From an uncultured Burkholderiales bacterium (GTDB lineage: Bacteria; Pseudomonadota; Gammaproteobacteria; Burkholderiales; Burkholderiaceae_C), in contig CAILCI010000019.1 of the NCBI GenBank assembly GCA_903832625.1, positions 1 through 34,910 of the forward strand: DNA of 34,910 nt, written 5' to 3'. A model generated the notes under the pieces. It searched no databases. It was given only the letters and a program-made list of their open reading frames with translations, and was not told the DNA's origin. Of this stretch, positions 2,921-23,613 are shown one piece after another (the first letter of the stretch is position 1; every line of letters starts with the position of its first letter). The position numbers were made by a program, and so were the translations under genes.

Positions 2921-5900
2921 ATGGCAGTTATCAATACCAACGTAAACGCGCTCTTTGCTCAGAATGCTCTCGGTAATACCGGCAAGCTTCAGAGCCAAGC
3001 GATGCAGCAATTGTCTAGCGGCTTGCGCATTAACTCTGCACGAGATGATGCGGCTGGAATGGCGATTGCAACCCGCATGACGAATCAAATTCGCGGCTTG
3101 AACCAAGCTGTCAAGAATTCAAACGATGCTGTCACGCTGGTGCAAACCGCTGAAGGTGCGACATCCTCCATCACGGACATGATGCAGCGCATGCGCGAGT
3201 TGGCATTGGAAGCCGTCAACGGCACACAAGACGACACACAACGTGGTTATCTTGACTTGGAATTCCAGCAGCTCAAACAGCAAATTGTTGACATATCCAA
3301 CCAAACCCAATGGAACGGTTTCCCTGTTCTCAACGGTACGGCGGGTCAGCGCGTGGGTGAGATGCCGGTTTACAAAGCCACCTCCAATAATTTGTCGGGC
3401 AATGTGTTCATCAGCCCCACAACGGCTCGCACGATTGCCGGCGCAAATTCTGGTGCCGTGCAAACCCTTGATTTCACGGCGGCACTTGCAGGCATTGGCC
3501 CATCGCCTGGCAAGCTCAACATCACTTGGACCAGCAATGGTCAGTCGTATTCACAACCTGTCACCATTACTGCCGCAGATGCAGCAAGTGGCGCAGCAGG
3601 TGTGTTGAGTGAAATTCAAAACACACTCAATCAATCTCAGTATTTTGGTGGCAACACCGGACGTAGTGCAACGGTTGGCACTGACTCGACAGTAGCTGCA
3701 ACCTACGGCAAGGTGGCACTCAATTTCAACAACGCCGATGGCGCTGTGACCGGGTTGTCTGTTGGTACAGGCTCGGTCTTCAACCCCGGGACAACGGTGA
3801 CGGTCAACACCACACCACCTTTGACGCCTAGTGCGAATCCAGCTTTTGATCCGCAATTGCCTGTGACCAACAGCTCTGAACAATTTGCCAACAACGGCAA
3901 GTTTTTGCAGACCGGCTCACTGTCCATCAATGTGGTCAGCACATCGGGTACGCCTGCGGTGACGGCGACTTTCTTGACAACCGACAACAAGAAAATTTTG
4001 CTCACTGGTGCCGTGGATGCGACCAACGGCACGATTGTTTTTGCGCCAAACACGGGCAATAACAATTTGGTGTTGTCAGACACTTTGACATATACCCTGC
4101 GCGACTCAACCGGCAGCGCTTTGAATTTGAACAATCCTGTAGGCAATTTGTCGCTGAGCGTGGACGTGCAAGGCAGCATTCCCACCATGCGTTCGGGCGA
4201 TTTGCTGATCAACGGAACCGTCATCGGCCCATCACTCGCGGCTGACGATACTCTGTCACCTACCAACAATGCTGCTGGCAGTGCGATTGCAAAAGCCGCA
4301 GCAATCAACCGTGCAGCGGTGGCGCAAGGCATCACACAACCCGAAGTGCAGTCTTTGACTGTCAATGGCAACCCATCGCCCGGCACCATCACGGTTGCAG
4401 GCGTGAGCGTGGTCATTACATCTTCTGACACCACAGCAGCGGCCGTGGCGCAAAAAATCTCGAATGCCTTGCAAGGCAGCGCACAATTTAGCTCCACAAC
4501 AGGACGCGCCATCTCGGTGGCTCAAGGCTCCAATGTGGTGACGGTGACATATCCCGTCAGCGATGGTGTTCAGCCCAAATTGGACTTTTCGCCTGGCTCG
4601 ACCGGCATGAATGGCCTCTCAAACATTGTCACGCCCTACCAAGACAACATTGCAGGCACGGGCGTGTTTGCCAAGGTGAACGAAAACGTAGTCACCGGTA
4701 AATCGATGGTTGAGTCTGCGGTTTCTCATGGCGTGGTGTTTGTCAACGGCTATGCCTCGGCTGACATCACGACAGTGTTGAACAATCCGCAAGCTACGCG
4801 TGCAAACGTTGTCAAAGCGATCAATTTAATCAGTGACAAAACAGGCGTCAAAGCCATTGATTCAGGCTCTGATCTCAAGGGCGTGACTTTGGTTGCTGCC
4901 GATGGCCGCAACATCGAAGTGAGTTTCCAAACCAATGACAACTCGAGCGTTTTTGGCTCAGCAGTGGGCTTGAACGAAGGTGTTCAGTGCTCGACGATTT
5001 CGCTGGAATCCAAAATTCCTGCGCCCGTTGTTCTGTCAGCTTCTCCCAATGGCGATATTTCTCGTATTGGTTTAGATGCGGGCAACTATTCCAAGAACCA
5101 ATCGGTGCTCAACACCGCGCCGCGCGCTCCTGCCATGCCTGCAACGGCTCAAATTGAGGCGGTCAATATTGGTGTGCCGACCGTAGGTGCAGTTGTTGAT
5201 GTGTTGATTAACGGCCTTTCGTTTACTTCAACCGCGACTACGACTGATGCACAAGGTTTGACCACAGATTTGATCAGCAGGATCAATACTGACACCACCC
5301 TAGGCGTCTTCGCCTCGGTGGGTAGCAAAAATGGTCAGCTGTTGTTGACGGCACGCGTGCCAGGTACCTCCTTCACATCGTCGGTGAACCCAACGCCCAG
5401 CACGCTGGCGAGCATGCAAGAGATCACTCCCAACGCGCAGGCAACCAGCGCGGGTTTGACCACCAACGACTTGAACATCAACGGAGTGGCCATCCGTCAA
5501 AGCGTGGCTGCGGACGATTTGTTGTCCACCACCTCCGCTTCGAGCAGTGATCCTGCAGCCAGCGCACTGGCGGTTGCCGCTGCGATCAACGACAGCACTT
5601 CGCAAACAGGCGTCAAAGCCTATGCCAACCCAGTGGTTAGCCAAGGCACAAGTACCAATACCTTTGGTCCCTTTGGCCCTCAATCTTTGTACATCAACGG
5701 CGTGCAAGTCAGCGTTGACTTTGTGCAAGGTGAAGACCCCATGGTTCGCCGCTCCAAAGTGGTGGATGCAATCAATGCGCTGCAAGGTCGCGATGGCGTG
5801 AGTGCCAGCGATAACGGCAGCGGTGTGACGCTGACCTCTGACGGTCGCAACATGACGGTTTCATTCGACTCCAGCGTGCCCGGCCTGTCGGCGGCTAGCT

Positions 5901-6988
5901 TTGGTCTGGACAAAGGTGGAGCTACAGCGCAAGTGTCAAAAATTGCGATGACGGCCACAACCGCGACCAGCGCTAGCGTTGTTATCAACGGTGTGCCTAT
6001 TAGCGTAACCAAAGCAGGTGGTGTGACGCCAACCGACATTGCGGCGGCCATCAATAACCAAACCACTCCAAAACTCGATGTCAAGGCCACGCTCGAATAT
6101 GCTGACGCTGCACATCCAACAGTGGCAACCGCTGTATTGGTGACGGCAAATGTGCCGGGCAATAGCTTTGATTTGCGCGGCGCAGCTGTACTCGCAGGCA
6201 GCGGTGTGACCATGACCTTGAGCACCGTCACGCCAAACAGCGTTGGCAACAACGATGTGACGCCTGTCAATATGACGGCCGCTTACAGCAACAATGTTTT
6301 GGGCGGCGGTAACGCTTTGAGCAATGCCAAGACTTTGTACGGAACAGTCAAATTGGTGGCTTCCGCGCCCATGCTGCCTGGCGAACCAGGCGCAGACGGT
6401 CTTGCGCCCAACACCATGAACATTGCGGGCACGCCCATCATGATCAGCACCGGTGCTCACGGCGTTGGTGCTGACAGCAACTTCTCGGCCTTGGGTTTCC
6501 AAGAGGGTGGTTTTGGTGGTCGCGCCAGTGCGGACATGGATCCTCCCAAAGTGGGTCGCTTGTCTTTCCAAGTCGGCGCGGGTGCTAATCAGACCATCAC
6601 GATTGACCTGCCAGACTTTGGCTCGGGTGGCACGATCACGGGCGACATCACAGGCGATGTGAACGTGCCAGTGGATCAACGCACGGTGCGCATCAACACA
6701 GCCAACGGCGCGACAGCGGTGTTGAATTTGTTGGATGCCTCCATGGACCGCATCAACGCGGTACGCGCCACGATGGGTGCTGTCATGAACCGTTTGGATT
6801 ACGCGGTCAGCAACTTGACCAACACGTCCAACAACATGTCCACCTCGCGCAGCGCGATTCAAGACGCCGATTACGCCGCAGCCTCGACCAACTTGGCCAA
6901 AGCGCAAATCATGCAGCAAGCAGCGACTGCCGTGCTGGCGCAAGCCAACACCAGCCAGCAAACTGTGCTCAAACTCTTGGGTGGTTGA
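2921..6988 (+). CDS. fliC: Giant flagellin (filament protein)
   Basis: The protein has 1355 residues, against roughly 270-600 in ordinary flagellins. Residues 1 to about 150 are a canonical D0/D1 N-terminus (start MAVINTNVNALFAQNAL, then LSSGLRINSARDDAAGMAIA). The last 90 residues are the matching C-terminus (SAIQDADYAAASTNLAKAQI, ending TVLKLLGG), so the gene is intact. The 1100 residues between are Ser/Thr/Ala/Gly-rich surface modules with repeated flagellin-IN-like strands: LLING near 427, VFVNG near 606, LNING near 852, LYING near 921, VVINGV further on, and two GVTL-DGRN units. One cysteine is present (Cys690), the only one I found. GGAG lies 8 bases before the ATG. A sigma-54 promoter precedes it. 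It is exported by the flagellar type III apparatus and polymerises outside the cell. Confidence 0.97.
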   Translation: MAVINTNVNALFAQNALGNTGKLQSQAMQQLSSGLRINSARDDAAGMAIATRMTNQIRGLNQAVKNSNDAVTLVQTAEGATSSITDMMQRMRELALEAVNGTQDDTQRGYLDLEFQQLKQQIVDISNQTQWNGFPVLNGTAGQRVGEMPVYKATSNNLSGNVFISPTTARTIAGANSGAVQTLDFTAALAGIGPSPGKLNITWTSNGQSYSQPVTITAADAASGAAGVLSEIQNTLNQSQYFGGNTGRSATVGTDSTVAATYGKVALNFNNADGAVTGLSVGTGSVFNPGTTVTVNTTPPLTPSANPAFDPQLPVTNSSEQFANNGKFLQTGSLSINVVSTSGTPAVTATFLTTDNKKILLTGAVDATNGTIVFAPNTGNNNLVLSDTLTYTLRDSTGSALNLNNPVGNLSLSVDVQGSIPTMRSGDLLINGTVIGPSLAADDTLSPTNNAAGSAIAKAAAINRAAVAQGITQPEVQSLTVNGNPSPGTITVAGVSVVITSSDTTAAAVAQKISNALQGSAQFSSTTGRAISVAQGSNVVTVTYPVSDGVQPKLDFSPGSTGMNGLSNIVTPYQDNIAGTGVFAKVNENVVTGKSMVESAVSHGVVFVNGYASADITTVLNNPQATRANVVKAINLISDKTGVKAIDSGSDLKGVTLVAADGRNIEVSFQTNDNSSVFGSAVGLNEGVQCSTISLESKIPAPVVLSASPNGDISRIGLDAGNYSKNQSVLNTAPRAPAMPATAQIEAVNIGVPTVGAVVDVLINGLSFTSTATTTDAQGLTTDLISRINTDTTLGVFASVGSKNGQLLLTARVPGTSFTSSVNPTPSTLASMQEITPNAQATSAGLTTNDLNINGVAIRQSVAADDLLSTTSASSSDPAASALAVAAAINDSTSQTGVKAYANPVVSQGTSTNTFGPFGPQSLYINGVQVSVDFVQGEDPMVRRSKVVDAINALQGRDGVSASDNGSGVTLTSDGRNMTVSFDSSVPGLSAASFGLDKGGATAQVSKIAMTATTATSASVVINGVPISVTKAGGVTPTDIAAAINNQTTPKLDVKATLEYADAAHPTVATAVLVTANVPGNSFDLRGAAVLAGSGVTMTLSTVTPNSVGNNDVTPVNMTAAYSNNVLGGGNALSNAKTLYGTVKLVASAPMLPGEPGADGLAPNTMNIAGTPIMISTGAHGVGADSNFSALGFQEGGFGGRASADMDPPKVGRLSFQVGAGANQTITIDLPDFGSGGTITGDITGDVNVPVDQRTVRINTANGATAVLNLLDASMDRINAVRATMGAVMNRLDYAVSNLTNTSNNMSTSRSAIQDADYAAASTNLAKAQIMQQAATAVLAQANTSQQTVLKLLGG

Positions 6989-9247: not shown

Positions 9248-11359
9248 ATGGCAACAGATACTCTCAACATGCCCGTCGCTGGATTACCAGCCACAACATC
9301 CGATGGTTCAGCATCCAACGCCACTGGCGGCGGGCTGACCGCGAGCTCAAACTCGCGTATTCCATCTTGGCTGAATCAGTCCGAAGGCCCCGCTGCCGTG
9401 GTGCTGGACATCTTGCGCCAACCCAGTGTGCGCAAGGCACTGCCATTTGTGGTGATCTTCATGCTGTTGGTTTCGGTGGCGGTGTTTTTCACCTCGATGA
9501 AGCCCACGCCTTATCGTCCTTTGGTGATGATGCTCAATGACGCGGACAAGCAGCAAGCGCTAGAAGCTTTGCGCACTGCAGAGTTCAAGCCCGAGGTCGA
9601 CGAAGCCACAGGCCAGTTGTCAGTACCTACAGCACGCTTTCAGGAAGCCCGCATGTTGTTGGCATCCAAAGGCATTCCACACACCGATGTGTCTGGCATG
9701 GACAACCTCAAAGACATGCCCGCCATGACCACCAGCCAGTTCATGGAGCAAGTGCGCTACAACAACGCCATGGAACAAGAGCTGGCGCGCAGCATCACAC
9801 AAATTGGCGGCATCAAATCAGCCCGTGTGCATTTGGCGGCGCCTAAGCAAAGTGTGTTTGTGCGCGACCGTGCGCCCACCAAAGCCTCGGTCATCATCAC
9901 CCGTATGCCTGGGCGTACTGTGTCCTCCGCCAACGTGCAAGCCATCATCCAATTGGTCGCTTCTAGTGTGCCCTATTTGGCGCCCGAAAACGTGTCGGTT
10001 GTGGACAACTTTGGCAGCTTGATGAACGACATGCTGACCGAGCAGCCTTTGGGGTTGACCTCTGCGCAGCTGACGCAAAAACAGCAAATGGAAGATTTGT
10101 ATCGCACCCGTCTGATTCAGTTGCTCGCACCCATCGTGGGCGAGGCCAACGTGACCGCGCAGGTGAGTATGTCGTTGGATTTCACGCAAACCGAAACCAC
10201 CACCGAAGACTTTGATTCGCAAGACAAGGGTCCCAAAACCCGCTCCGAACTCTTTGTTGAAGACCGCAGCACCTTGCGCGACGCGATTGGTATTCCGGGC
10301 GCCTTGTCAAACACGCCGCCTGCTCCTACCAACCCTCAAGCCACGACGCAAACCAATGCTGACCCGCTCAAAGGTGTGAGCGAAAAAGGCGTGCAAGTCA
10401 CCGCCCGTAGTACCAAAAACTACGAACTTGACCGTGCTGTGCGACACACCAAAAACGCCATGGGCGTGATCACCAAAATTGGTGTGGGTGTGTTGCTCAA
10501 CGAACGTCCCATTCCTGCCGGCATGAAAGTTGAAAAACCAGCCGATGGCGCAGCACCTGCCACCTCTATTCCTTACTCACCCGAAGAGTTGGAGCGTTTG
10601 AATCAACTCGTCAAAGGCGCCGTGGGCTTTAACGAAAATCGTGGCGACGTGGTGACTGTGGTTTCGACCAAGTTTGAACCACAAATCGATCCCAACGCAG
10701 TGCCCTGGTACTTGGATGAAAACTACCAAGTCATGGTCAATGCAGCTGTGATCGCGCTGGTCTTCTTGTTGCTGATGGTGTTTGTGGTTCGTCCGATGGT
10801 GCGTCGTTTGACCAGTCCTGAGATTGATCCAGCTGCCTTGGCCGCCGCTGCCGCCGAAGCCGCAGAACGAGAGGCTAAACTTGCCATCGAGGTGGCGACG
10901 GCTGAATCGGTAGCGGCGCAACATGCGGCCAAAGAAGCCCGCGAAGCACATGAAAACGAAATGGCTCGTTTGAGCGAAGAAGCCACACGATCAGCTGCGA
11001 TGGCTGCCCGAATTGCGGAAGCCGCGCGTCAAGCTGTGGCCGAAAAAGCAGCTGCCGAACAATTGGCTCGTGAAGAGCAAGAACGCGCCTTGGCCGAAGC
11101 CAGAGCCAAAGCAGAGACCGCTGCATTGGCCGCGGCCTTGGAAGAAGGCTCAGGCGAAGAAATCGAAATTCAAGAGGGCGAAACCCTCGAAGAAGTCAAG
11201 GCACGCATGGCGAGCTTGAAGCCCAAGAAACAATCGATCTCTGCGGACTTGCTCAACACAGCAAATTCGTATGATGACAAAGTTGCCTTGATCCGTATGA
11301 TCGTCTCTGAGGACTCCAGCCGCGTGGCAGGTGTGCTCAAAGGTTTGATCCAAGGCTAA
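9248..11359 (+). CDS. fliF: MS-ring protein FliF with extended cytoplasmic region
   Basis: The protein has 703 residues, about 130-150 longer than usual. It has TM1 near residues 63-83 and periplasmic ring-building domains with typical text (MTTSQFMEQVRYNNAMEQEL, then RVHLAAPKQSVFVRD). TM2 lies near 497-518 and ends VVRPMVRRL. The extra length lies after TM2: about 530-650 is an Ala/Glu/Arg-rich predicted coiled coil. The final 45 residues (start EIEIQEGETLEEVKARM, then NSYDDKVALIRMIVSED) form the tail that by family knowledge docks FliG. That tail is closely repeated in the separate protein at 13830-14507. FliF forms the inner-membrane base of the motor. Confidence 0.97.
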   Translation: MATDTLNMPVAGLPATTSDGSASNATGGGLTASSNSRIPSWLNQSEGPAAVVLDILRQPSVRKALPFVVIFMLLVSVAVFFTSMKPTPYRPLVMMLNDADKQQALEALRTAEFKPEVDEATGQLSVPTARFQEARMLLASKGIPHTDVSGMDNLKDMPAMTTSQFMEQVRYNNAMEQELARSITQIGGIKSARVHLAAPKQSVFVRDRAPTKASVIITRMPGRTVSSANVQAIIQLVASSVPYLAPENVSVVDNFGSLMNDMLTEQPLGLTSAQLTQKQQMEDLYRTRLIQLLAPIVGEANVTAQVSMSLDFTQTETTTEDFDSQDKGPKTRSELFVEDRSTLRDAIGIPGALSNTPPAPTNPQATTQTNADPLKGVSEKGVQVTARSTKNYELDRAVRHTKNAMGVITKIGVGVLLNERPIPAGMKVEKPADGAAPATSIPYSPEELERLNQLVKGAVGFNENRGDVVTVVSTKFEPQIDPNAVPWYLDENYQVMVNAAVIALVFLLLMVFVVRPMVRRLTSPEIDPAALAAAAAEAAEREAKLAIEVATAESVAAQHAAKEAREAHENEMARLSEEATRSAAMAARIAEAARQAVAEKAAAEQLAREEQERALAEARAKAETAALAAALEEGSGEEIEIQEGETLEEVKARMASLKPKKQSISADLLNTANSYDDKVALIRMIVSEDSSRVAGVLKGLIQG

Positions 11360-11391: not shown

Positions 11392-12429
11392 ATGGCAGAC
11401 AATGACGGCTTGTTGATGACCGACGCCTTGCGCGCCGAGCTCGGCAACATCACCAGTACACAACGTGCGGCGGTGTTGATGTTGCTCTTGGGCGAAGACC
11501 AGGCGGCTGAGATCATCAAATTTTTGAACCCAAAAGAAGTTCAAGCACTGGGTCACGCCATGGTGCAGGTGGCAGATTTTTCACAAGACGCAGTCAACGT
11601 GGTGTTGGATGAGTTTGTGGAGCACTTGAAAAAGCAATCCACCTTGAGCATGGGCAATACCGACTATGTCGAAAAAGTCATGCGCCGCGCTCTCGGAGAC
11701 GACAAAGCCGCTTCTGTGCTGGGTCACATCATGCCCGGACAAGGCACCAAGGGTTTGGACATTTTGAGCTGGATGGATGCCCGCGGTATTGCGGACATGA
11801 TCAAGTCAGAACATCCGCAAGTGGTTGCCATTATTTTGTCATTGCTCGAAGGCGAAGTGGCTGCTGAAGTATTGATTTACTTGCCCAGCGAAATTCGCGC
11901 TGAAGTTATTCAACGCGTGGCCAGTCTCGATACGGTGCAGCCTTCTGCAATGGCGGAGTTAGAGGCCATCATGAAGCAACAATTCTCCAAGAGTGCTTCG
12001 GCGCAATCGTCGAGTTTTGGTGGCATCAAGGCTGCGGCCAAGATCATGAACTTGACCAAGACCGAGCTGGAGAACAGCATCATGGGCGGCTTAAACGAGC
12101 TCGATCCCGATTTGATGCTCAAGATTCAAGACAATATGTTCACCTTCGAGAATTTGATCAGCGTGGACAACAAAGGCATTCAAGTGCTCATGCGCGCTGT
12201 CGAACCCGATATGTTGATGATCGCCCTCAAAGGTGCCAGCGATGGTTGCCAAGCGCGCTTTTTTGATAACATGTCTGAGCGTGCCCGAGGCATGTTCCGC
12301 GACGACATGGAAGCCAAAGGCCCGCAGCGTATGTCCGATGTGGAAAACGCACAAAAGCAAATCATGCGTATGGCACGCAAGCTTTCCGACTCTGGCGAGC
12401 TGATGTTGGGGGGCGCAGACTTTGTATAA
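11392..12429 (+). CDS. fliG: Flagellar motor switch protein FliG
   Basis: The protein has 345 residues, normal for FliG, starting at ATG 11392 with AGGAAA 8 bases upstream. The N-terminal domain (RAAVLMLLLGEDQAAEIIKF) is the FliF-binding part. The EHPQ motif of the middle domain is present (IKSEHPQVVAIILSLL). The C-terminal armadillo domain contains the charged helix that meets the stator (FFDNMSERARGMFRDDMEA). FliG forms the upper C-ring on the cytoplasmic face of the MS ring and transmits torque. FliM and FliN, its C-ring partners, are not encoded in this window. fliH overlaps its last codons. Confidence 0.97.
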   Translation: MADNDGLLMTDALRAELGNITSTQRAAVLMLLLGEDQAAEIIKFLNPKEVQALGHAMVQVADFSQDAVNVVLDEFVEHLKKQSTLSMGNTDYVEKVMRRALGDDKAASVLGHIMPGQGTKGLDILSWMDARGIADMIKSEHPQVVAIILSLLEGEVAAEVLIYLPSEIRAEVIQRVASLDTVQPSAMAELEAIMKQQFSKSASAQSSSFGGIKAAAKIMNLTKTELENSIMGGLNELDPDLMLKIQDNMFTFENLISVDNKGIQVLMRAVEPDMLMIALKGASDGCQARFFDNMSERARGMFRDDMEAKGPQRMSDVENAQKQIMRMARKLSDSGELMLGGADFV

Positions 12430-13849
12430 CCAACCGCGTCCCTTGCGGCCACAAAAGCCGTGGCAAGCAGCGACTCATCTCATGCCTTTGGGAGAGAGGC
12501 GCAGTTTCGCCTCTGCCTCTTGGGCGCAAGATGAAAGTCCAGACGACGGATTTGAGTCAACAGACGTACAAGGTTCAGCCAGAGATTTTGCGCCAACACG
12601 CATCGAACCCATGATGCACCCTTTGCCCAAGCACATCTTGACTGCGCTGGCATTGCTGGACGAAGCACAACACAAACATGAGCAAGCCACGCAGTTTGGC
12701 GTGTCTGATCACGAGGCAACACCTGAGTCGGACGATCCGCCATTGCCCTTTGTGCCTATGGTCTATCAAGCGGTGGACTGGAGTGGTAAACCTATTGTTG
12801 TGCAAGCGCCTGAAATTGCAGATGCACAAGTGGATGCACCCGCGCCAACACCCGAACACGAAAACCCAGAATTGAATGTGCAATTGGCGCAGGTTGAAGC
12901 TGATGCGGCTCAGGACAGCCCTGAGCCTTGGGCCGACACACCAGAGCACGAGCAAGATCTTGAGATTTTTGCCGCCGACGCTTTTGAAGCACCTGAAGAG
13001 ACCGTACCTAACCCTTGCTTGGCAGATGAGTCGCCCGAAGAACACACAGCATTGGCCGAGAGTGAACTCAATGACCAAGATCAGACTGCGCCCAGCGAGC
13101 TGGCCACCGATGTGCAAGAACTGGAACAAAACCTAAGCACAGAACAAGAGCCCGAGCAACAAGCCCAACACGAAGCACAGCAGCAGGCAGATCCCGAAAC
13201 CGAACAGCCAGCTGAGCCAGCTATTGAGCAACCCTCAGAGCAAGAGGCCGCATTGCCTCCAGGTGTTCAAGAGGATGAAGTCCTACAACGCGAACAAGAG
13301 CATTACCTCAAAGGTTTAGAAGAAGGCGAGCGCAGAGCGCGCGCGGCCATGCAAGAAGAAATCACAGCCAAAAGCGCATTGCTTGACGAAGCCACCGCTC
13401 AGCTGGAAGCATTGCTCAACGACTCGAGCAAACTGTTCGAGCCCATCAAACGTTTGAGCATGCATTTGGCCGAGCAAATTGTTTTGGGTGAACTCAATAC
13501 GCCTACGGCATGGATTGAACGCATGGTGCAGCGTTGTTTGGACGAGGTGCATATTCCTGCGCAAGGCTTGGTCGTTGTAGAAATGAATGCACGCGACAAA
13601 CAGCACTTGGAAGCTGAAGACAGCAAGTTACTCAAGAGCGTGCGCCTTGAAGTTAGCGATGACATTGAGCCGGGCAGCGTGCGCGTCTTGGTCAATGGCA
13701 TGGTCATTGAAGAATTTTTGAGCCACCGCCTTTTGGGCTTGGTGCGCTCGTTGTCGATTGATGAGTCGGCGTGGCGCGAACAGTCCACTCTGACAAATAC
13801 CGAAGAATCTTTGCAAGAAATGGAGCGCGATGATGATCATCATTCCTGA
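12422..13849 (+). CDS. fliH: Flagellar export regulator FliH, with long acidic N-terminus
   Basis: With the TTG start at 12422 (overlapping fliG, with a G-run about 8 bases upstream) the protein has 475 residues, about twice the usual FliH. An in-frame ATG at 12482 is the alternative. Residues 1 to about 280 are low-complexity, rich in Glu, Gln, Pro and Asp (EQEPEQQAQHEAQQQ), and probably disordered. The conserved FliH part begins around 285: a coiled coil (LKGLEEGERRARAAMQEE), then FEPIKRLSMHLAEQIV and IEPGSVRVLVNG, typical of the FliH/SctL C-domain that binds FliI. FliH tethers and restrains the FliI ATPase at the export gate. The 3' end overlaps the next gene by 20 bases. Confidence 0.9.
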   Translation: MYNQPRPLRPQKPWQAATHLMPLGERRSFASASWAQDESPDDGFESTDVQGSARDFAPTRIEPMMHPLPKHILTALALLDEAQHKHEQATQFGVSDHEATPESDDPPLPFVPMVYQAVDWSGKPIVVQAPEIADAQVDAPAPTPEHENPELNVQLAQVEADAAQDSPEPWADTPEHEQDLEIFAADAFEAPEETVPNPCLADESPEEHTALAESELNDQDQTAPSELATDVQELEQNLSTEQEPEQQAQHEAQQQADPETEQPAEPAIEQPSEQEAALPPGVQEDEVLQREQEHYLKGLEEGERRARAAMQEEITAKSALLDEATAQLEALLNDSSKLFEPIKRLSMHLAEQIVLGELNTPTAWIERMVQRCLDEVHIPAQGLVVVEMNARDKQHLEAEDSKLLKSVRLEVSDDIEPGSVRVLVNGMVIEEFLSHRLLGLVRSLSIDESAWREQSTLTNTEESLQEMERDDDHHS

Positions 13850-14507
13850 AGTCATCAACACCATTTTGATGGGGCTGATTTTTATGGTGATTGTGATCAC
13901 CATCGTGCGGCCCTTGATGCTCAATTTGGTGCCGCTCTATACCGGCCCCCATCCGCAAGACGCCATTATCGATGAAATAGAGATGGAAGTCGCGCGCCTA
14001 GCCGAGCTAAACACAAAACGCAATGGCAACTTGATCGAGTTCCATCGTCAACTGCTGATTGCCCCGCCGCGCCCCAGTCGTCCTGTGGTGCAAGAGCCAG
14101 AAGAAGACGAAGACCTTGACTTATTCGGCTTGCGGGCTGAACTTGATGCGGCCAAAGCCAAAGCAGAACAAGAGCGCTTGGAAGCCGAGGAAAAAGCACG
14201 TGCCGAAGAAGAGCTCAAAGCTCAAGAAGCCGCTGCCGCTGCCGAGGAAGCCGCCAACCTCGCAGCCATTGCTGCTGACAGCGATGTACCGCTCGATGAG
14301 ATTGAAATCCGTGACGGCGAGTCTTTGGCCGAAATCAAAGAGCGCATGAAGCGCGAACAACAAAACGCCAAAAAACCCACCATTCCGCCCGAGTTGCTCA
14401 ACAATGCCAAGAGCTACGAAGACAAAGTCGGTGTGGTGCGCATGGTGGTGCAACAAGATCAAAACCGCGTGGCTGCTGTCATTCGCGGCATGATCAAAAC
14501 CAAATAA
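13830..14507 (+). CDS. FliF-derived mini-protein: TM2 + coiled coil + FliG-binding tail
   Basis: The protein has 225 residues; the start is ATG 13830 or 13833 with GGAG at 13822, inside the end of fliH. Residues about 8-30 are one membrane helix ending IVRPLMLNL, like TM2 of FliF (VVRPMVRRL). Residues 100-160 are an Ala/Glu/Lys coiled coil like FliF's extension. The last 60 residues match FliF's tail: EIEIRDGESLAEIKERM against EIEIQEGETLEEVKARM, and KSYEDKVGVVRMVVQQD against NSYDDKVALIRMIVSED. The periplasmic ring domains and TM1 are absent. By position and content it should sit in the inner membrane and offer a second docking tail to FliG. I know no named family; it looks like a partial duplication of fliF that has been kept intact. 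Confidence 0.88.
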   Translation: MMIIIPEVINTILMGLIFMVIVITIVRPLMLNLVPLYTGPHPQDAIIDEIEMEVARLAELNTKRNGNLIEFHRQLLIAPPRPSRPVVQEPEEDEDLDLFGLRAELDAAKAKAEQERLEAEEKARAEEELKAQEAAAAAEEAANLAAIAADSDVPLDEIEIRDGESLAEIKERMKREQQNAKKPTIPPELLNNAKSYEDKVGVVRMVVQQDQNRVAAVIRGMIKTK

Positions 14508-14516
14508 CCCCCGTCT

Positions 14517-15836
14517 ATGCTTGATCTTGCCCAAGAAGTCGAACGCAGCATGGCCAAGCTGCGTGTGCCTGCGCCATTGCGCAGCGGCACTTTGGTGCGC
14601 TTGGTGGGGTTGACCTTAGAGACACGCGGCATCATGGCACCCTTGGGCGCTTGCTGCGAAGTGTTGGGTCAAGACGGCCACCGCGTCGAGGCCGAGGTGG
14701 TGGGCTTTAACGACAAAACTCTCTACCTCATGCCTTTTAGCGATCCAGTGGGCGTGGGGCCTGGCGACACGGTGCGTGTCATCACCAATTCAGCACAAAT
14801 TCAAGTGGGTGATGCCTTGTTGGGGCGCGTCATCGATGGTCGTGGTCAACCCTTGGACGGCAAGCCCATGCCCGATTTGCCCGACCAGGTCAACTTGCTA
14901 GGCCACGCGCTGAACCCCATGGAGCGCGGCCCGATTGATTCGGTGCTCGACGTGGGCGTGAAAGCCATCAACAGTTGTTTGACCATTGGTCGAGGTCAGC
15001 GCATTGGTTTGATTGCCGGATCAGGCGTGGGCAAGAGCGTGCTCTTGGGCATGCTCACGCGCTTCACCCAAGCTGACGTGGTGGTGATTGGTTTGATTGG
15101 CGAGCGTGGCCGCGAGGTGCAGGCTTTTATTTCAGAATCACTGGGTGCAGAGGGATTGGCCAAGTCGGTGGTCATCGCTGCACCCGCCAACGTCTCGCCT
15201 GTGCTGCGGCTGAAGGCCACCCACATGACGCATGTCATTGCTGAGTATTTCCGCGATCAAGGCAAAAACGTGTTGATGTTGTGCGACAGCCTGACCCGCG
15301 TGGCACATGCTCAGCGAGAAATTGGCTTGGCCATTGGCGAGCCGCCGACTGCCAAAGGTTATCCACCTTCGGTGTTTGCGTTGTTGCCCAACTTGATTGA
15401 GCGCGGCGGTGTAGGGCGACATGGCTTTGGTGCCATCACCTCCATCTACACCGTGCTGGCCGAAGGCGATGACGCCTCAGACCCCATTGTGGACATCGCC
15501 CGTGCTTCCTTAGATGGTCAGGTCATGCTGTCGCGTCGACTGGCTGATCAAGCGCATTACCCCGCGATTGACCTGAATGGTTCTATTTCACGCGTCATGC
15601 AAAACTTGGTCAACCCCGATGAGCTGCGCTTGGCCAACAAATTTCGCAGGCTCTGGTCGGTGTATGAACAAAATGCCGACTTGGTGCAGGTGGGCGCTTA
15701 CGAAAAGGGAAGCAACCCCGAGTTGGACGAAGCCATTCGTTTGCGCGAACCCATGGTCAACTTTTTGCGCCAAGACATGCATTTGGCTGAAACTTACAAA
15801 CTCAGCCGCATGCAGTTGAATCACATGCTGACATGA
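14517..15836 (+). CDS. fliI: Flagellum-specific ATPase FliI
   Basis: The protein has 439 residues, the usual size. Walker A is GLIAGSGVGKSVLLGM (about 163-178) and the Walker B region is VLMLCDSLTRVAHAQREIG, followed by GEPPTAKGYPPSVFALLP, the signature of type III secretion ATPases. It resembles the F1-ATPase beta subunit, forms a hexamer at the base of the export gate and, with FliH and FliJ, promotes unfolding and delivery of substrates. It starts 9 bases after the FliF-like gene with only a weak ribosome site, and overlaps fliJ by 4 bases (ATGA). Confidence 0.97.
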   Translation: MLDLAQEVERSMAKLRVPAPLRSGTLVRLVGLTLETRGIMAPLGACCEVLGQDGHRVEAEVVGFNDKTLYLMPFSDPVGVGPGDTVRVITNSAQIQVGDALLGRVIDGRGQPLDGKPMPDLPDQVNLLGHALNPMERGPIDSVLDVGVKAINSCLTIGRGQRIGLIAGSGVGKSVLLGMLTRFTQADVVVIGLIGERGREVQAFISESLGAEGLAKSVVIAAPANVSPVLRLKATHMTHVIAEYFRDQGKNVLMLCDSLTRVAHAQREIGLAIGEPPTAKGYPPSVFALLPNLIERGGVGRHGFGAITSIYTVLAEGDDASDPIVDIARASLDGQVMLSRRLADQAHYPAIDLNGSISRVMQNLVNPDELRLANKFRRLWSVYEQNADLVQVGAYEKGSNPELDEAIRLREPMVNFLRQDMHLAETYKLSRMQLNHMLT

Positions 15837-16273: not shown

Positions 16274-17017
16274 TCAGGCTTGCACCCAGCCCGCTTGAAG
16301 CCAATGGCCGTGCTCGGGAGTGAACGCCCAAGGAATATAGTGAGTGGGTGTATTGGCCGCAAACACGTGGCCTGTCAAATGATCGCTCCAGACGTCGTGC
16401 GCACCTATTTGTTGGAGCAGCTTTTGGGCAAATACAGGATCTTGCGCATCAGCCGCTAGCGCTTGAATGGCTTGCAAAGCCAAAGGTTGCGGGCTTTGAC
16501 GCGGCCCTGACAGCCAATCGTGCAGACTGCCCCAACTGCGCCCATGCAGTTGTTGCTTGAGGGCGTTCAACTCTTTTTCTGTGCGATCGATATCACGCAG
16601 TCGATACCGATGTTGCCCCAACACATTGTCAAACCACACACAGGCTGTGGGGTGAGTGCTCAGGAGTTGAGGCAGGCTGGCCAGTGCGTCTTGTCGATGG
16701 TGTCTCACTTGCACACCTTGTTGTTTTAAGTGCCTGCCATGGCGCCAATTGAACAAATATTGCGCCAAAGGATCAATGTCGTAGGCATCGATGCGTTCGA
16801 ATTGCAGTAGCCATTGGCGCGGCATCATCCAGCCCGCACTCCCACCGACCAACAGCAGGTGAGAGCTGCCAGGCTTGAATATATTTAAAAAGTATTCAAT
16901 TTGCACCAACGTGCCCTGCCAACGCTTGAGCGACTGCGCTGCATGCCAGTGCCAACGCAGGCCACCCGTGCCTCCAGCCAGCAGTCCATCAGAAAAAAAT
17001 TGTTGCAATGGGAGCAT
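16274..17017 (-). CDS. Putative class I methyltransferase-like protein
   Basis: The protein has 247 residues. The segment HLLLVGGSAGWMMPRQWLL followed by IDAYDIDPLAQYLF has the layout of SAM-binding motif I plus the acidic loop at the end of strand 2, and ACVWFDNVLGQ could be motif IV, as in spermidine-synthase-like Rossmann methyltransferases. The glycine motif is not canonical, so activity is uncertain. It lies on the opposite strand between fliJ and fliO, where fliKLMN often stand, and ends exactly where fliJ ends. No clear ribosome site precedes ATG 17017. The substrate is unknown and a flagellar role is not shown. Confidence 0.75.
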   Translation of the reverse strand: MLPLQQFFSDGLLAGGTGGLRWHWHAAQSLKRWQGTLVQIEYFLNIFKPGSSHLLLVGGSAGWMMPRQWLLQFERIDAYDIDPLAQYLFNWRHGRHLKQQGVQVRHHRQDALASLPQLLSTHPTACVWFDNVLGQHRYRLRDIDRTEKELNALKQQLHGRSWGSLHDWLSGPRQSPQPLALQAIQALAADAQDPVFAQKLLQQIGAHDVWSDHLTGHVFAANTPTHYIPWAFTPEHGHWLQAGWVQA

Positions 17018-17059
17018 TTGCTAACTATAGCGATGTGTCAAAAGTGTGGGCTTTTAGGC

Positions 17060-17075
17060 TGGCACGGGCATTGCA
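17060..17075 (+). promoter_or_regulatory. Sigma-54 promoter of the fliOPQR-flhB operon
   Basis: The element reads TGGCACGGGCATTGCA, with GG at 17061-17062 and GC at 17073-17074, 10 bases apart. It is a near-perfect consensus. The predicted transcript start is near 17086. This gives the export-gate genes their own entry, independent of the fliE operon, needed because a minus-strand gene separates them. Confidence 0.9.
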
Positions 17076-17099
17076 AGGCTAGATGAAGAGGCACTGTAA

Positions 17100-17408
17100 G
17101 TGTCGGTAAATCGTCATGGCTTTTGGGATTACATCATGCAAACTTTCAATTGGACTCAGTTTCTGGCAAGCACCATTGGCATTGCCTTGGTGCTGTTGGC
17201 TGGCTTGTGGTGGGTTCGTCGCAACAAAAGCATGGGTACTCATTTATTGAGCGAGCGACGCATTCAGATGGTTGAAGCTTTGCCCTTGAGCTTGAAACAC
17301 AAAATGGTGTTGATCCAAATCGATAACCAAATGGTCTTGGCTAGCGTGAGTCCCGCCGAAGTGAAAACCTTGCACGCGTGGACGCAAGGAGGCGATCATG
17401 CTGCGTAA
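17100..17408 (+). CDS. fliO: Flagellar biosynthesis protein FliO
   Basis: The protein has 102 residues from GTG 17100 (GAGG 8 bases upstream, but only about 14 bases after the predicted transcript start), or 90 from ATG 17136. Both are plausible. One membrane helix (FLASTIGIALVLLAGLWWV) is followed by a small cytoplasmic domain with RRIQMVEALPLSLKHKMVLI, typical of FliO. FliO is an assembly scaffold for the FliP ring of the export gate and is not part of the final structure. It overlaps fliP by 11 bases. Confidence 0.88.
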   Translation: MSVNRHGFWDYIMQTFNWTQFLASTIGIALVLLAGLWWVRRNKSMGTHLLSERRIQMVEALPLSLKHKMVLIQIDNQMVLASVSPAEVKTLHAWTQGGDHAA

Positions 17409-20381: not shown

Positions 20382-21914
20382 ATGTCTGAAATCCATCAAA
20401 GCCCCGGTGATCGGCTGCGTTTTGAAATACTCCTCAAGTCTTTGACCGAGGGTAACCTGAACTTGGCCGTGCTCAGCGACCATGACATGGTGCTGGATTA
20501 CTACGGCAATTTGTTTGAACAAAGCTTGAAAGCGAAGGGTGAAACTCAGGTCGAGTTTTGCTACTCCACCAACTCCGAAAAGTTGGTTCAAAAATTCAAC
20601 GAAATCCTCTCCGACCTCACGCTCAACCAAGCACTGGAAAAAGAAGAAAAACACGCACCACGCCGCTACCTCTTATTTCGTGACTCGATCTTGATGCAAG
20701 AGTTCGAGTTGCAGCTCTTGGCGCGCTTGGTCAATGGTTTTCCAGCCAGCAACATCAGCATTATTTTGCTTATCAACAGCGCTGGCAGCTACCGCAACAA
20801 GCTGGAAGCCTTTGGCAAAAACCTGCTTCAGTGGGAGGTCGAAACCAAAGCTGGCAAGCCCAAACAGCCGCTGCAAGATTGGGTCGCCAAAGACATGCTG
20901 GACCCCACCGACCCCACGCCCATGAACGATGCTGAGGTATCCAAGCTCCTCAACATCCCCACCAAAACCGCATGGCGCGTGCCGAGTTTTGGTTTCTCCA
21001 AAGCGACTCCAGCGCAAACACAACCCGAATCAGATCCTCTGGATTCGCCCGCGCCGAGCACGCCGCAGCCCCCAATTCCTCAAGCCTCCCAAGCCCCTGT
21101 TTTGCAGCCCCTGCCACGCGAGCCCCAATGGCAAGCGAACAATTTGCCAGATGATTTTTCAGCACCGCCAGAAGATGCGCCTTTGATCATCGACAAGCCC
21201 AAGCGCACTTTTCCTTGGGGCTTGATGTTGTTGGTCTTGTTGCTCAGCACAGCAGCTTCTGGCTTGATGTACCAAGATTTTTTACTGTCTGAAGTGGAGA
21301 GCTTTAAAAAATACCTCTTGCGTGGCACACCCGCCAAGGCCACGGCAGCTGAGCAATCTGCCAGCGACATTGCGGCTGCAGCTTCTGAAGCCATGGCCCG
21401 CGCAGAGGCTCAAATGGCCGCATCGGCTGCTGCGCAGGCGGCCTCTGTGGCCATTCAAGCTGCCTCCTCCGCTGCTGAGACAACGAGCGAGGCTGCACCA
21501 GTGGCTGCTGCCCCTGCTTCAAGCGTGACCTCTTCGCCTGTGAGTTCAGCCCCCAAAAGCCTTGACAAGTCCGACAAATCGGAAAAATCTGACAAAACCA
21601 AACCTAAAGTTAGTACTTCCGCGTCCGATCAAGAATGGGTGAGTCAATTGCCCGAAAACGGCTACGTGCTTCAGCTCGCAGCGTTTGATACAGCCGATGA
21701 AATTCAAGCCTTCAAGCGCAGCCAAAGCGCTTATGGACAAACGCGCATCATGTCGCCGCTCAAAAAAGGCAGCGATAAGCGCTATTTCATCTTAGTCGCG
21801 GGACCATTTCCTGGTAAAGCGCAGGCAGAGGCTTTCATGGCGACCGATCCTTTGTTCAACAAAGGCTGGCTCAGAAGCAGTAAATCGCTCAAAGCTCAGT
21901 TTGAGCGACCTTAA
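20382..21914 (+). CDS. Membrane SPOR-domain protein with degenerate ExeA/DamX-like N-domain
   Basis: The protein has 510 residues. Residues 1-175 are predicted cytoplasmic; the part RRYLLFRDSILMQEFELQLL followed by ISIILLIN has the rhythm of the Walker-B region of ExeA/DamX/MshM-type ATPases, but there is no Walker A motif and the acidic pair is lost, so it would not hydrolyse ATP. A Pro/Gln-rich linker, one membrane helix (about 277-297) and a long Ala/Ser-rich periplasmic stretch follow. The end (about 425-510, GYVLQLAAFDTADEIQAFKR, then KRYFILVAGPFPGKAQAEAF) is a SPOR domain, a fold that binds denuded peptidoglycan. It lies 16 bases after flhB. It may link the export apparatus or the cell pole to the wall; a DamX-like division role is the alternative. 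Confidence 0.85.
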   Translation: MSEIHQSPGDRLRFEILLKSLTEGNLNLAVLSDHDMVLDYYGNLFEQSLKAKGETQVEFCYSTNSEKLVQKFNEILSDLTLNQALEKEEKHAPRRYLLFRDSILMQEFELQLLARLVNGFPASNISIILLINSAGSYRNKLEAFGKNLLQWEVETKAGKPKQPLQDWVAKDMLDPTDPTPMNDAEVSKLLNIPTKTAWRVPSFGFSKATPAQTQPESDPLDSPAPSTPQPPIPQASQAPVLQPLPREPQWQANNLPDDFSAPPEDAPLIIDKPKRTFPWGLMLLVLLLSTAASGLMYQDFLLSEVESFKKYLLRGTPAKATAAEQSASDIAAAASEAMARAEAQMAASAAAQAASVAIQAASSAAETTSEAAPVAAAPASSVTSSPVSSAPKSLDKSDKSEKSDKTKPKVSTSASDQEWVSQLPENGYVLQLAAFDTADEIQAFKRSQSAYGQTRIMSPLKKGSDKRYFILVAGPFPGKAQAEAFMATDPLFNKGWLRSSKSLKAQFERP

Positions 21915-21936
21915 CGGCGAAACAAGGAAGTAGGGC

Positions 21937-22323
21937 ATGAGCACACATGACAATCAAGTGGGCAATCACCATCAAGAGCCGGTGATCACCATCACCGACC
22001 CCAATGCTGGTTTTGAGGTGGACAAGCCCGAGAAGCTGCCTCAATTGCGCATGCATGACTTGCCAGAAGATGCCAAGGGTTTGTCGCCTGAAGAGTTGGC
22101 GTTGGTGCCGACCTTGACCGAACCTGTGGGTGACGCCAAAAGCGATTCAGACCAAGAGCCCAGCGATTCAACTGACCTAGAGGAACAGCCTTTGGCTCAA
22201 GAGTTGTTGCCTCAAGCCGATTCTTGGGTGGAGGTTTGTCAAATGCGCATAGCGAGTTTGTCAGATGACATCCATTCACTCAATGAGCGGCTCGATCGCT
22301 TCGAAAAAAGAATTAAGGCATAG
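21937..22323 (+). CDS. Small acidic protein of unknown function
   Basis: The protein has 128 residues and starts at ATG 21937 after GGAAG/AGGG, a good ribosome site, 22 bases past the SPOR-protein gene. It is strongly acidic and mostly unstructured (runs rich in Asp, Glu, Pro and Ser). The last 35 residues (SLSDDIHSLNERLDRFEKRI) form a short coiled coil. No membrane segment or known domain is seen. Three bases separate it from the next gene, so the two products may act together, perhaps through coiled-coil contacts. This last point is inference. Confidence 0.8.
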   Translation: MSTHDNQVGNHHQEPVITITDPNAGFEVDKPEKLPQLRMHDLPEDAKGLSPEELALVPTLTEPVGDAKSDSDQEPSDSTDLEEQPLAQELLPQADSWVEVCQMRIASLSDDIHSLNERLDRFEKRIKA

Positions 22324-22326
22324 ACC

Positions 22327-23613
22327 ATGGCAGATCAGTCACAAGCATCCAACGCCGAGCAAGCCGCAGCCGCACCTGTTGCGGGTGATGAGCCCTTGGT
22401 CGATGTAGAGGCGACTGCCAATCGCCTGACCGAAATCGCCAGCGAGTCGTTGGATACCAACGAAGTGGCGCGTCAAATTGAAGAGCTGACCTCGGTGGTG
22501 CTTGACTCTGCCGAGGTCTCCACACGCTCCGCATCGATAGCAGCCGACGTCAGCGCGACCATGCGTGCTGTGGTCACCAAAATCCAAGAAACCAACCGCC
22601 GCAACGTGATGCACTCGCGCATTGTGTTGGGCGTGGTAGCCGGTGCGTTGCTGCTGGCCATTGGCGTTTTCTTTGCGATCACGGTCAAAATGACCAAGTC
22701 CATCAAAGAGCTCGACACCATCGTCTACTCAATGGCAAAACGCGTCATTGAAGTCGATGCCAGTTTGACAGCCATTGGTAAAACGAATTCGGATCTGTCG
22801 GAAGTGACTGATCGGCAAGACAAGCTCTCAGAAGCTCAGGCGAAATTGGCCACACACTTGGATGAGATGGCTAAAACCTTGGCCAGTTTGCCCGCTAGCG
22901 TGATCGAACAAAGCAACAAGGCCGGTGACCCCAAAGCCCAGGCCCTCGAAAAAGAGCTGCAAAGTTTGCAAGCCAAGCTGACAGCGATGGACAGCAAGTT
23001 GTCCAATTCGCCAGCACTCAAAGCCGCTGCGCCATCGGGGCCTACGCCCCAGGTGTTGTTGCTCGAAATCCAACGCTTGCGCCAAGATTTAGAAACCATC
23101 AGCCGCGCACGCAATACAGCGCAATCCGAGGCAGATAAATCTTCGGCCAAGGTGTTGGAGATGGCGTTGTCCAAGTCTCAGGCCGCAGCCGACAAAGCTG
23201 AAAAAGCAGCCAACTTAGCGGGCTCTGCCGCAGACCGGGCCTCAGCCGCCGAGCGAGCTGCCGCCGCAGAACGTCAAGCAGCATTGAAAGCGGCTGCCGA
23301 AAAAGCCGTTGCCCTGCGCTCTGGCACATCGGTTGAAAAACCCGATCCCGACCGCTTGGCGCAAGAGCGTGCAGCAGCTCAAAAGGCTGCAGCTCTGAAA
23401 GAGAAAGCAGCAGCTGACAAAGCCGCAGCAGATAAGGCCGCTGCCGATAAAGCTGCCGCCGATCGTGCTGCGGCAGAAAAAGCCGCTGCTGATCGTGCTG
23501 CTGAGCGCGCCGCCGAGCAAGCTAGACAAGCCGCAGCTCAAGCAGCAAATGCAGCTCGCTCAAAAGAAAACTTGATCAAATATCCCCGAGCTTCGACCAA
23601 CGAAGAAAAGTAA
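22327..23613 (+). CDS. Membrane protein with long TolA-like Ala/Lys/Asp helix
   Basis: The protein has 428 residues. An acidic N-terminal cytoplasmic part of about 98 residues with Ser/Thr-rich helices (VARQIEELTSVVLDSAEVST) is followed by one membrane helix (about 100-121, IVLGVVAGALLLAIGVFFAI) with Arg residues on the N side, implying that the rest is periplasmic. Residues 130-290 are coiled coil, and about 300-410 is an Ala-rich helix with tandem AAADK units, like domain II of TolA. The end is Lys/Asn polar. No catalytic motif is seen. It closes the flagellar export operon and ends 7 bases from a convergent gene. A structural, envelope-spanning role is likely by analogy only. Confidence 0.82.
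   Translation: MADQSQASNAEQAAAAPVAGDEPLVDVEATANRLTEIASESLDTNEVARQIEELTSVVLDSAEVSTRSASIAADVSATMRAVVTKIQETNRRNVMHSRIVLGVVAGALLLAIGVFFAITVKMTKSIKELDTIVYSMAKRVIEVDASLTAIGKTNSDLSEVTDRQDKLSEAQAKLATHLDEMAKTLASLPASVIEQSNKAGDPKAQALEKELQSLQAKLTAMDSKLSNSPALKAAAPSGPTPQVLLLEIQRLRQDLETISRARNTAQSEADKSSAKVLEMALSKSQAAADKAEKAANLAGSAADRASAAERAAAAERQAALKAAAEKAVALRSGTSVEKPDPDRLAQERAAAQKAAALKEKAAADKAAADKAAADKAAADRAAAEKAAADRAAERAAEQARQAAAQAANAARSKENLIKYPRASTNEEK

Follow-up and report, generated by a model that had tools for sequence, protein, structure and literature searches.

A stand-alone FliF-type tail between fliH and fliI

The window, by which we mean the whole 34,910-nucleotide stretch of DNA under analysis, comes from a freshwater bacterium and carries flagellar genes in the order fliE-fliF-fliG-fliH-[mini-FliF]-fliI-fliJ, followed by a reverse-strand gene and then fliO-P-Q-R. 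The bracketed gene, at positions 13830-14507 of the forward strand, encodes a 225-aa protein with a FliF-type tail that we refer to as mini-FliF. An earlier note on this DNA had described a stand-alone 225-residue protein at the fliH-fliI junction, and the frame is indeed open. Its start overlaps the frame of fliH (12422-13849, +) by 20 nt, and a gap of 9 nt separates its end from fliI (14517-15836, +), identified by Pfam as the export ATPase. The fliH gene was assigned from a weak domain match, below the cut-off. Its 475-aa frame is long, with a long acidic N-terminal half, and frames of up to 722 aa occur among other carriers of the mini-FliF gene.

Upstream, fliF (9248-11359, +) was identified by Pfam and encodes a protein of 703 aa, the cytoplasmic linker of which is lengthened according to our linker count. 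FliF's own C-terminal tail, paralogous to that of mini-FliF, is encoded at 11171-11356 (+). The distance of 4.6 kb given in the earlier note between fliF and the mini-FliF gene is correct when measured between the two starts; the gap between the FliF stop and the mini-FliF start is 2.5 kb. The presumed partner of mini-FliF, the 345-aa FliG, is encoded by a single-copy gene at 11392-12429 (+). A scan of positions 13500-14800 returned no promoter-like sites and a single terminator-like site, whereas shuffled sequence gave more. One FliF and one FliG were found in the window genome, and its fliM/fliN-type domains lie on another contig; a second motor is thus no explanation for the extra tail.

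The window has several other features worth recording. Positions 2921-6988 (+) encode a very large flagellin of 1355 aa, with the usual flagellin N- and C-terminal domains at its ends and a long middle. The reverse-strand gene between fliJ and fliO (16274-17408), where E. coli has fliK-L-M-N, has no Pfam match, and the same order of fliJ, reverse-strand gene and fliO recurs in 8 other carrier loci inspected. Of three genes downstream at 20382-23613 (+), one has a SPOR domain; the other two have no Pfam match, and the last has an Ala/Lys-rich repetitive end.

Mini-FliF resembles the C-terminal part of FliF

The AlphaFold model of the window protein (mean pLDDT 70.9, pTM 0.21) predicts a single membrane helix, at residues 5-33 (13842-13928, +), with a VRP motif near its end; pLDDT in this block reaches 95, and the helix is homologous to the second membrane helix (TM2) of FliF. 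A predicted juxtamembrane cytoplasmic helix follows at residues 42-76 (13953-14057, +; block pLDDT 73-91). Residues 98-149 (14121-14276, +) form an Ala/Glu/Lys-rich linker, modelled as another long helix, that varies among species. The FliF-type, putatively FliG-docking tail spans residues 166-225 (14325-14504, +), with helices at 166-181, 187-192 and 196-224, and was delimited with BLASTP, a tail profile and the model.

Homology to FliF is found at both ends of the protein. By BLASTP, residues 165-223 of mini-FliF align with residues 646-702 of the window FliF at 27/59 identical and 42/59 similar positions (E 1e-13). This alignment bears out the earlier note's match over the last 60 or so residues; its description of the FliG-docking tail as nearly duplicated was too strong for sequences that are 46% identical. 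A genome-wide search extends the relationship to residues 8-223 and so to the membrane helix (35% identity, E 6.9e-13). A profile of 18 type-B FliF tails matched 43/43 mini-FliFs (E 6e-24 to 5e-12) and 0/43 reversed decoys. Conversely, a profile of mini-FliF tails only matched FliF C-termini at 26/29 class-level loci (E 8.5e-8 to 2.5e-3), a result that is partly circular because the 29 loci came from a mixed tail profile.

For the membrane helix, a profile built from relatives was run against 1468 other ORFs and gave 73 matches at E up to 10. FliF accounts for 66 of these (out of 69 FliF ORFs searched; E 9e-6 to 1.8, with the window FliF at 0.007), and in 66/66 the best stretch is TM2; the 7 non-FliF matches have E 0.56 or worse. 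The earlier note's equation of the two membrane helices is therefore sound. Its claim that a coiled coil also matches FliF did not hold up, as the likeness is one of composition only: the linker sequence of mini-FliF is unconserved between species (alignment A1, which excludes L030, a locus where the start of the gene is cut off), and the linkers of several relatives are not coil-like.

The ring-building domains, lacking from the protein according to the same note, were indeed not matched. Neither YscJ_FliF (PF01514) nor YscJ_FliF_C (PF08345) was detected in mini-FliF by Pfam at E up to 1, and both families are present in the window FliF (2.3e-52 and 9e-35, respectively). No Pfam or NCBIfam family scored above cut-off on mini-FliF. 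MgtE_N was likewise unmatched in mini-FliF at E up to 1 (Pfam), and it did match in FliG (1.3e-07). The C-tails of FliF are diverse. PDB profile searches with mini-FliF and with the tail alone yielded few and weak matches, none of them FliF, and Foldseek with the window model returned nothing at E 0.001 or better and 5 matches at up to 10. Judged from these comparisons of sequence, and in line with the conservation and the second occurrence described below, mini-FliF is a FliF TM2 joined to a FliF-type tail, in which ring-building domains were not found.

The tail core residues D, K, R, RVA and I are retained in mini-FliF and FliF alike. Of the positions conserved in type-B FliF tails, mini-FliFs keep 53% (59% in the window copy), compared with 79% in co-resident FliF tails. 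The greater drift of the mini-FliF tail suggests that its affinity or its partner may differ from that of the FliF tail.

The gene seems to be a constant feature of one lineage

In the GTDB genus (the Limnohabitans LimA lineage), 21/25 genomes gave a match, the window's own included, and the gene is present in all 21; the same search matched 0/16 genomes of other families. Further genus carriers are G118, G216 and G363. Among the outcomes that the earlier note would have taken as refutations were the lack of a significant alignment between the two tails and the absence of the gene from all relatives with the same operon. Neither occurred: the two tails align as described above, and relatives carry the gene. 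It is open in 20/20 other genus loci, and in the 19 fetched that show both neighbours it is preceded by fliH and followed by fliI. In the twentieth (L030), the contig begins inside the gene and continues to fliI. Five genus genomes without a match to the gene (G001, G011, G016, G019 and G420, with completeness of 64, 68, 99, 81 and 99) also gave no FliG match (0/5). The gene is thus present in each flagellate genome of the lineage that was examined, and mini-FliF appears to be fixed in this one lineage.

A profile search of 399 family genomes matched 18, of which 5 belong to the genus and each carry mini-FliF together with FliF; the 13 outside the genus have the FliF tail alone (in G076 the frame is shortened at the contig start). 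Of 369 genomes sampled across the class, 56 matched the tail profile, with a second copy in the window genome only. A 269-aa frame in G084 matches at E 2.4e-4. A single 244-aa frame in G476 (L154) was set aside as a FliF frame that is interrupted. The gene is carried by, among others, Limnohabitans sp. B9-3, Jir61 and JirII-31, each bearing the label LimA, whereas in the LimC isolates Hippo3, Bal53, T6-20 and WS1 fliH adjoins fliI and there is no mini-FliF gene; the NCBI genus Limnohabitans is therefore split in this respect. On the FliI tree, the contig of L098, titled as a 'Bordetella parapertussis' MAG, nests among carriers of the Limnohabitans type, and its label looks wrong. G875 has two separate full-length FliF frames (L198 and L199, of 624 and 628 aa), perhaps from two flagellar systems.

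Mini-FliF is old and under purifying selection

In a FliI tree with 73 rows, for which the best 80 among 165 relatives were sampled, the 47 carriers with the gene at the fliH-fliI site require one gain and no loss (SH-aLRT 91). The 47 mini-FliF tails form one clade, separate from FliF tails (SH-aLRT 100), on a tail tree with 64 columns, few for its 107 rows. With the tails grouped apart in this way, gene conversion with FliF is not indicated, and recent conversion is rejected on the same ground. Of the 25 closest pairs listed, all but one have a mini-FliF dN/dS between 0.10 and 0.27, the exception being at 0.44 (set of 43, excluding L137, a locus described below). In the same pairs, values for fliH are similar or somewhat lower, and those for fliF, fliG and fliI are lower. 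The gene is an ancient paralogue of the C-terminal part of FliF, with one origin in this lineage, and it is under purifying selection.

Other origins were considered and rejected. A pseudogene or frameshifted FliF is ruled out by the open frame and purifying selection. For a mobile or plasmid-borne gene, no relative was present among 33 viral-contig pattern matches, no PHROG matched at E 0.001, the sole plasmid protein match was an annotated FliF, and there was no plasmid DNA match.

A second occurrence between fliF and fliG

Two further genomes also have a stand-alone FliF-tail gene, placed between fliF and fliG (L137:2045-2437; L188:1489-1953, reverse strand). L137, from a Betaproteobacteria MAG (G803), encodes a 130-aa protein with one membrane helix ending in RP and a FliF-type tail. 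The protein of G842, also encoded between fliF and fliG, has 154 aa and no RP motif. Starting from G803, a search of 149 genomes matched 8, and 2 of them (G803 and G842) carry such a protein. In this second lineage fliH and fliI adjoin each other, and the stand-alone gene is next to neither. On the tail tree, the tail from L137 clusters with those of FliF, outside the Limnohabitans clade, which we read as an origin separate from that of the Limnohabitans gene; it keeps 78% of the type-B conserved positions. By its sequence, a mini-FliF-like protein thus seems to have arisen separately elsewhere.

Modelled as a read-through into FliG, the second-lineage protein gave a pTM of 0.40 and a tail pLDDT of about 72, from an alignment in which 9 of 25 rows are FliF-FliG. 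The part of this model from the tail helix through FliG_N, which belongs to the second-lineage and not to the window protein and is of modest confidence, aligns with FliG_M folds (3soh_B, 74 residues at 2.4 Å; 4qrm_D, 75 residues at 2.9 Å, the aligned ranges being given by first and last residue only). Co-folded FliFc-FliG_N reportedly resembles FliG_M, according to the portion of PMC6079021 consulted.

Linker lengths of FliF and mini-FliF

Linker length was counted in residues, starting at the RP that follows TM2 and ending with the last residue of the protein. The FliF linker has 152-215 residues in carriers (37 loci), versus 97-105 in non-carriers (the 23 loci where the fliH-fliI junction was seen). 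Six gene-less loci with the junction unseen stand outside the 23, with FliF linkers of 97-105 residues and, in L099, of 126. Since the carriers are one clade set against the rest, this difference counts as one event rather than 60.

At the 37 carrier loci, mini-FliF linkers span 163-209 residues, and their lengths correlate with those of the co-resident FliF (rho 0.61, n=37). The correlation is weaker when phylogeny is considered (independent contrasts of both lengths, r 0.52; same sign in 16/26), so that the link between the two lengths is suggestive only. The second linker-length correlation excludes L137, and a tip-permutation count (0/2000) was set aside because permuting destroys phylogenetic signal. 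In the second lineage, the linkers of the stand-alone protein and of FliF have 104 and 117 residues in L137 and about 122 and 127 in G842, where the start point of the linker was placed by eye.

Proposed role of mini-FliF and alternatives

We propose that mini-FliF serves as an additional FliG-docking tail, anchored in the membrane, and uncouples the copy numbers of FliF and FliG, a reading to which we give an even chance and in which binding to FliG is inferred. The earlier note had likewise suggested extra FliG-binding tails that change the FliF:FliG ratio, with an assembly adaptor for an enlarged C-ring as another possibility. Mini-FliF would be an inner-membrane protein with a cytoplasmic tail, located at the MS-ring or close to it, and the tail would fill the groove of a FliG N-domain as the FliF tail does. 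It would thereby anchor FliG copies not paired with a FliF tail, and the number of FliG in the C-ring would no longer be set by the number of FliF. Its tether would be similar in length to that of FliF because, in this proposal, the two tails have to extend to one and the same FliG layer. A cryo-EM study of a Salmonella rotor proposed 33 FliF to 34 FliG and stated that the ratio is not necessarily 1:1 (PMC11087270), which makes spare FliG sites conceivable. Counting against the proposal are the greater drift of the mini-FliF tail, the weakening of the linker-length correlation when phylogeny is considered, the modest confidence of the second-lineage model and its FliF-FliG alignment rows, and the PDB searches, which gave no FliF match.

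The same homology and conservation of the tail would also suit an assembly factor, a membrane-bound tail that hands free FliG to the growing MS-ring or blocks premature FliG assembly and is absent from the finished rotor. The more divergent tail would fit weaker, exchangeable binding, and in the second lineage the gene directly precedes fliG. The similar linker lengths of mini-FliF and FliF are more easily explained by a common position in the rotor, however, and we consider this alternative unlikely. Quite unlikely, in our estimate, is an activator of the export gate or basal body analogous to SwrB, that is, a single-pass protein that would act on the FliF basal body and license secretion. 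The mini-FliF gene sits among export genes, and SwrB, in the portion of PMC4526659 consulted, is a genus-restricted single-pass protein; alleles of FliG and FliP suppress its loss, and it needs FliF for its action. Yet the conserved part of mini-FliF is a FliF-type tail, and over-expression of SwrB restores hooks even without FliG (same portion of PMC4526659).

The setting of the gene invites a third reading, in which mini-FliF anchors the ATPase complex of FliH and FliI to the membrane or acts as its adaptor. A FliH/FliI adaptor was also among the suggestions of the earlier note, and only gene position supports it. In the 19 genus loci showing both neighbours, the gene starts within the end of fliH and fliI follows directly, and carriers have long FliH frames (395-722 aa, contig-cut ones excluded, versus 308-444 aa in 25 non-carriers; the ranges overlap). 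We regard such an adaptor as very unlikely nonetheless: the conserved ends of the protein are a FliF TM2 and a FliF-type tail, and the second-lineage gene is found between fliF and fliG, with fliH and fliI adjoining each other in that lineage. The chance of a non-functional fragment, pseudogene or assembly artefact is close to negligible given a frame open in 20/20 genus loci (19 whole, one contig-cut), a dN/dS well under 1, and one gain with no loss.

Extending the proposal of an extra FliG-docking tail, we suggest tentatively, at less than even probability, that two lineages independently evolved rotors with two FliG anchors, FliF and mini-FliF, in which a separate gene rather than MS-ring symmetry would set the FliG copy number and perhaps also torque and the size of the C-ring. 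Some rotors may thus have spare FliG anchors. What fixes the subunit numbers of the MS-ring and C-ring is debated, and a natural gene that makes ring-less FliF-type tails, and that apparently evolved twice, would offer a direct genetic handle on this question.

Comparison with known systems

The closest known counterpart is the C-terminal cytoplasmic part of FliF itself, the second membrane helix and FliG-docking tail of which are each homologous to the corresponding part of mini-FliF. Mini-FliF differs from FliF in that the ring-building domains were not found in it, it has no first membrane helix, it is separately encoded, and its tails form their own clade. YlxF, the partner of FliF in PDB entry 9a67, bears an MgtE_N/FliG-like domain and would accordingly mimic FliG, whereas mini-FliF mimics FliF.

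Neither a truncated or extra FliF in such a layout nor a gene between fliH and fliI was described among the papers listed in the literature searches, which covered open-licence PMC papers, and the consulted portions of PMC4526659, PMC13344023, PMC6079021, PMC11087270 and PMC3591437 likewise do not describe it. SwrB of Bacillus subtilis is, according to the portion of PMC4526659 consulted, also a small flagellar protein with a single membrane pass, confined to one genus and acting with FliF and FliG; homology to the FliF tail is not mentioned for SwrB in that portion. FliF-FliG fusion proteins (e.g. PDB 8z4d), as far as the material consulted describes them, likewise change the tie of FliG to FliF, but a fusion ties the two 1:1, whereas the mini-FliF layout would loosen their ratio.
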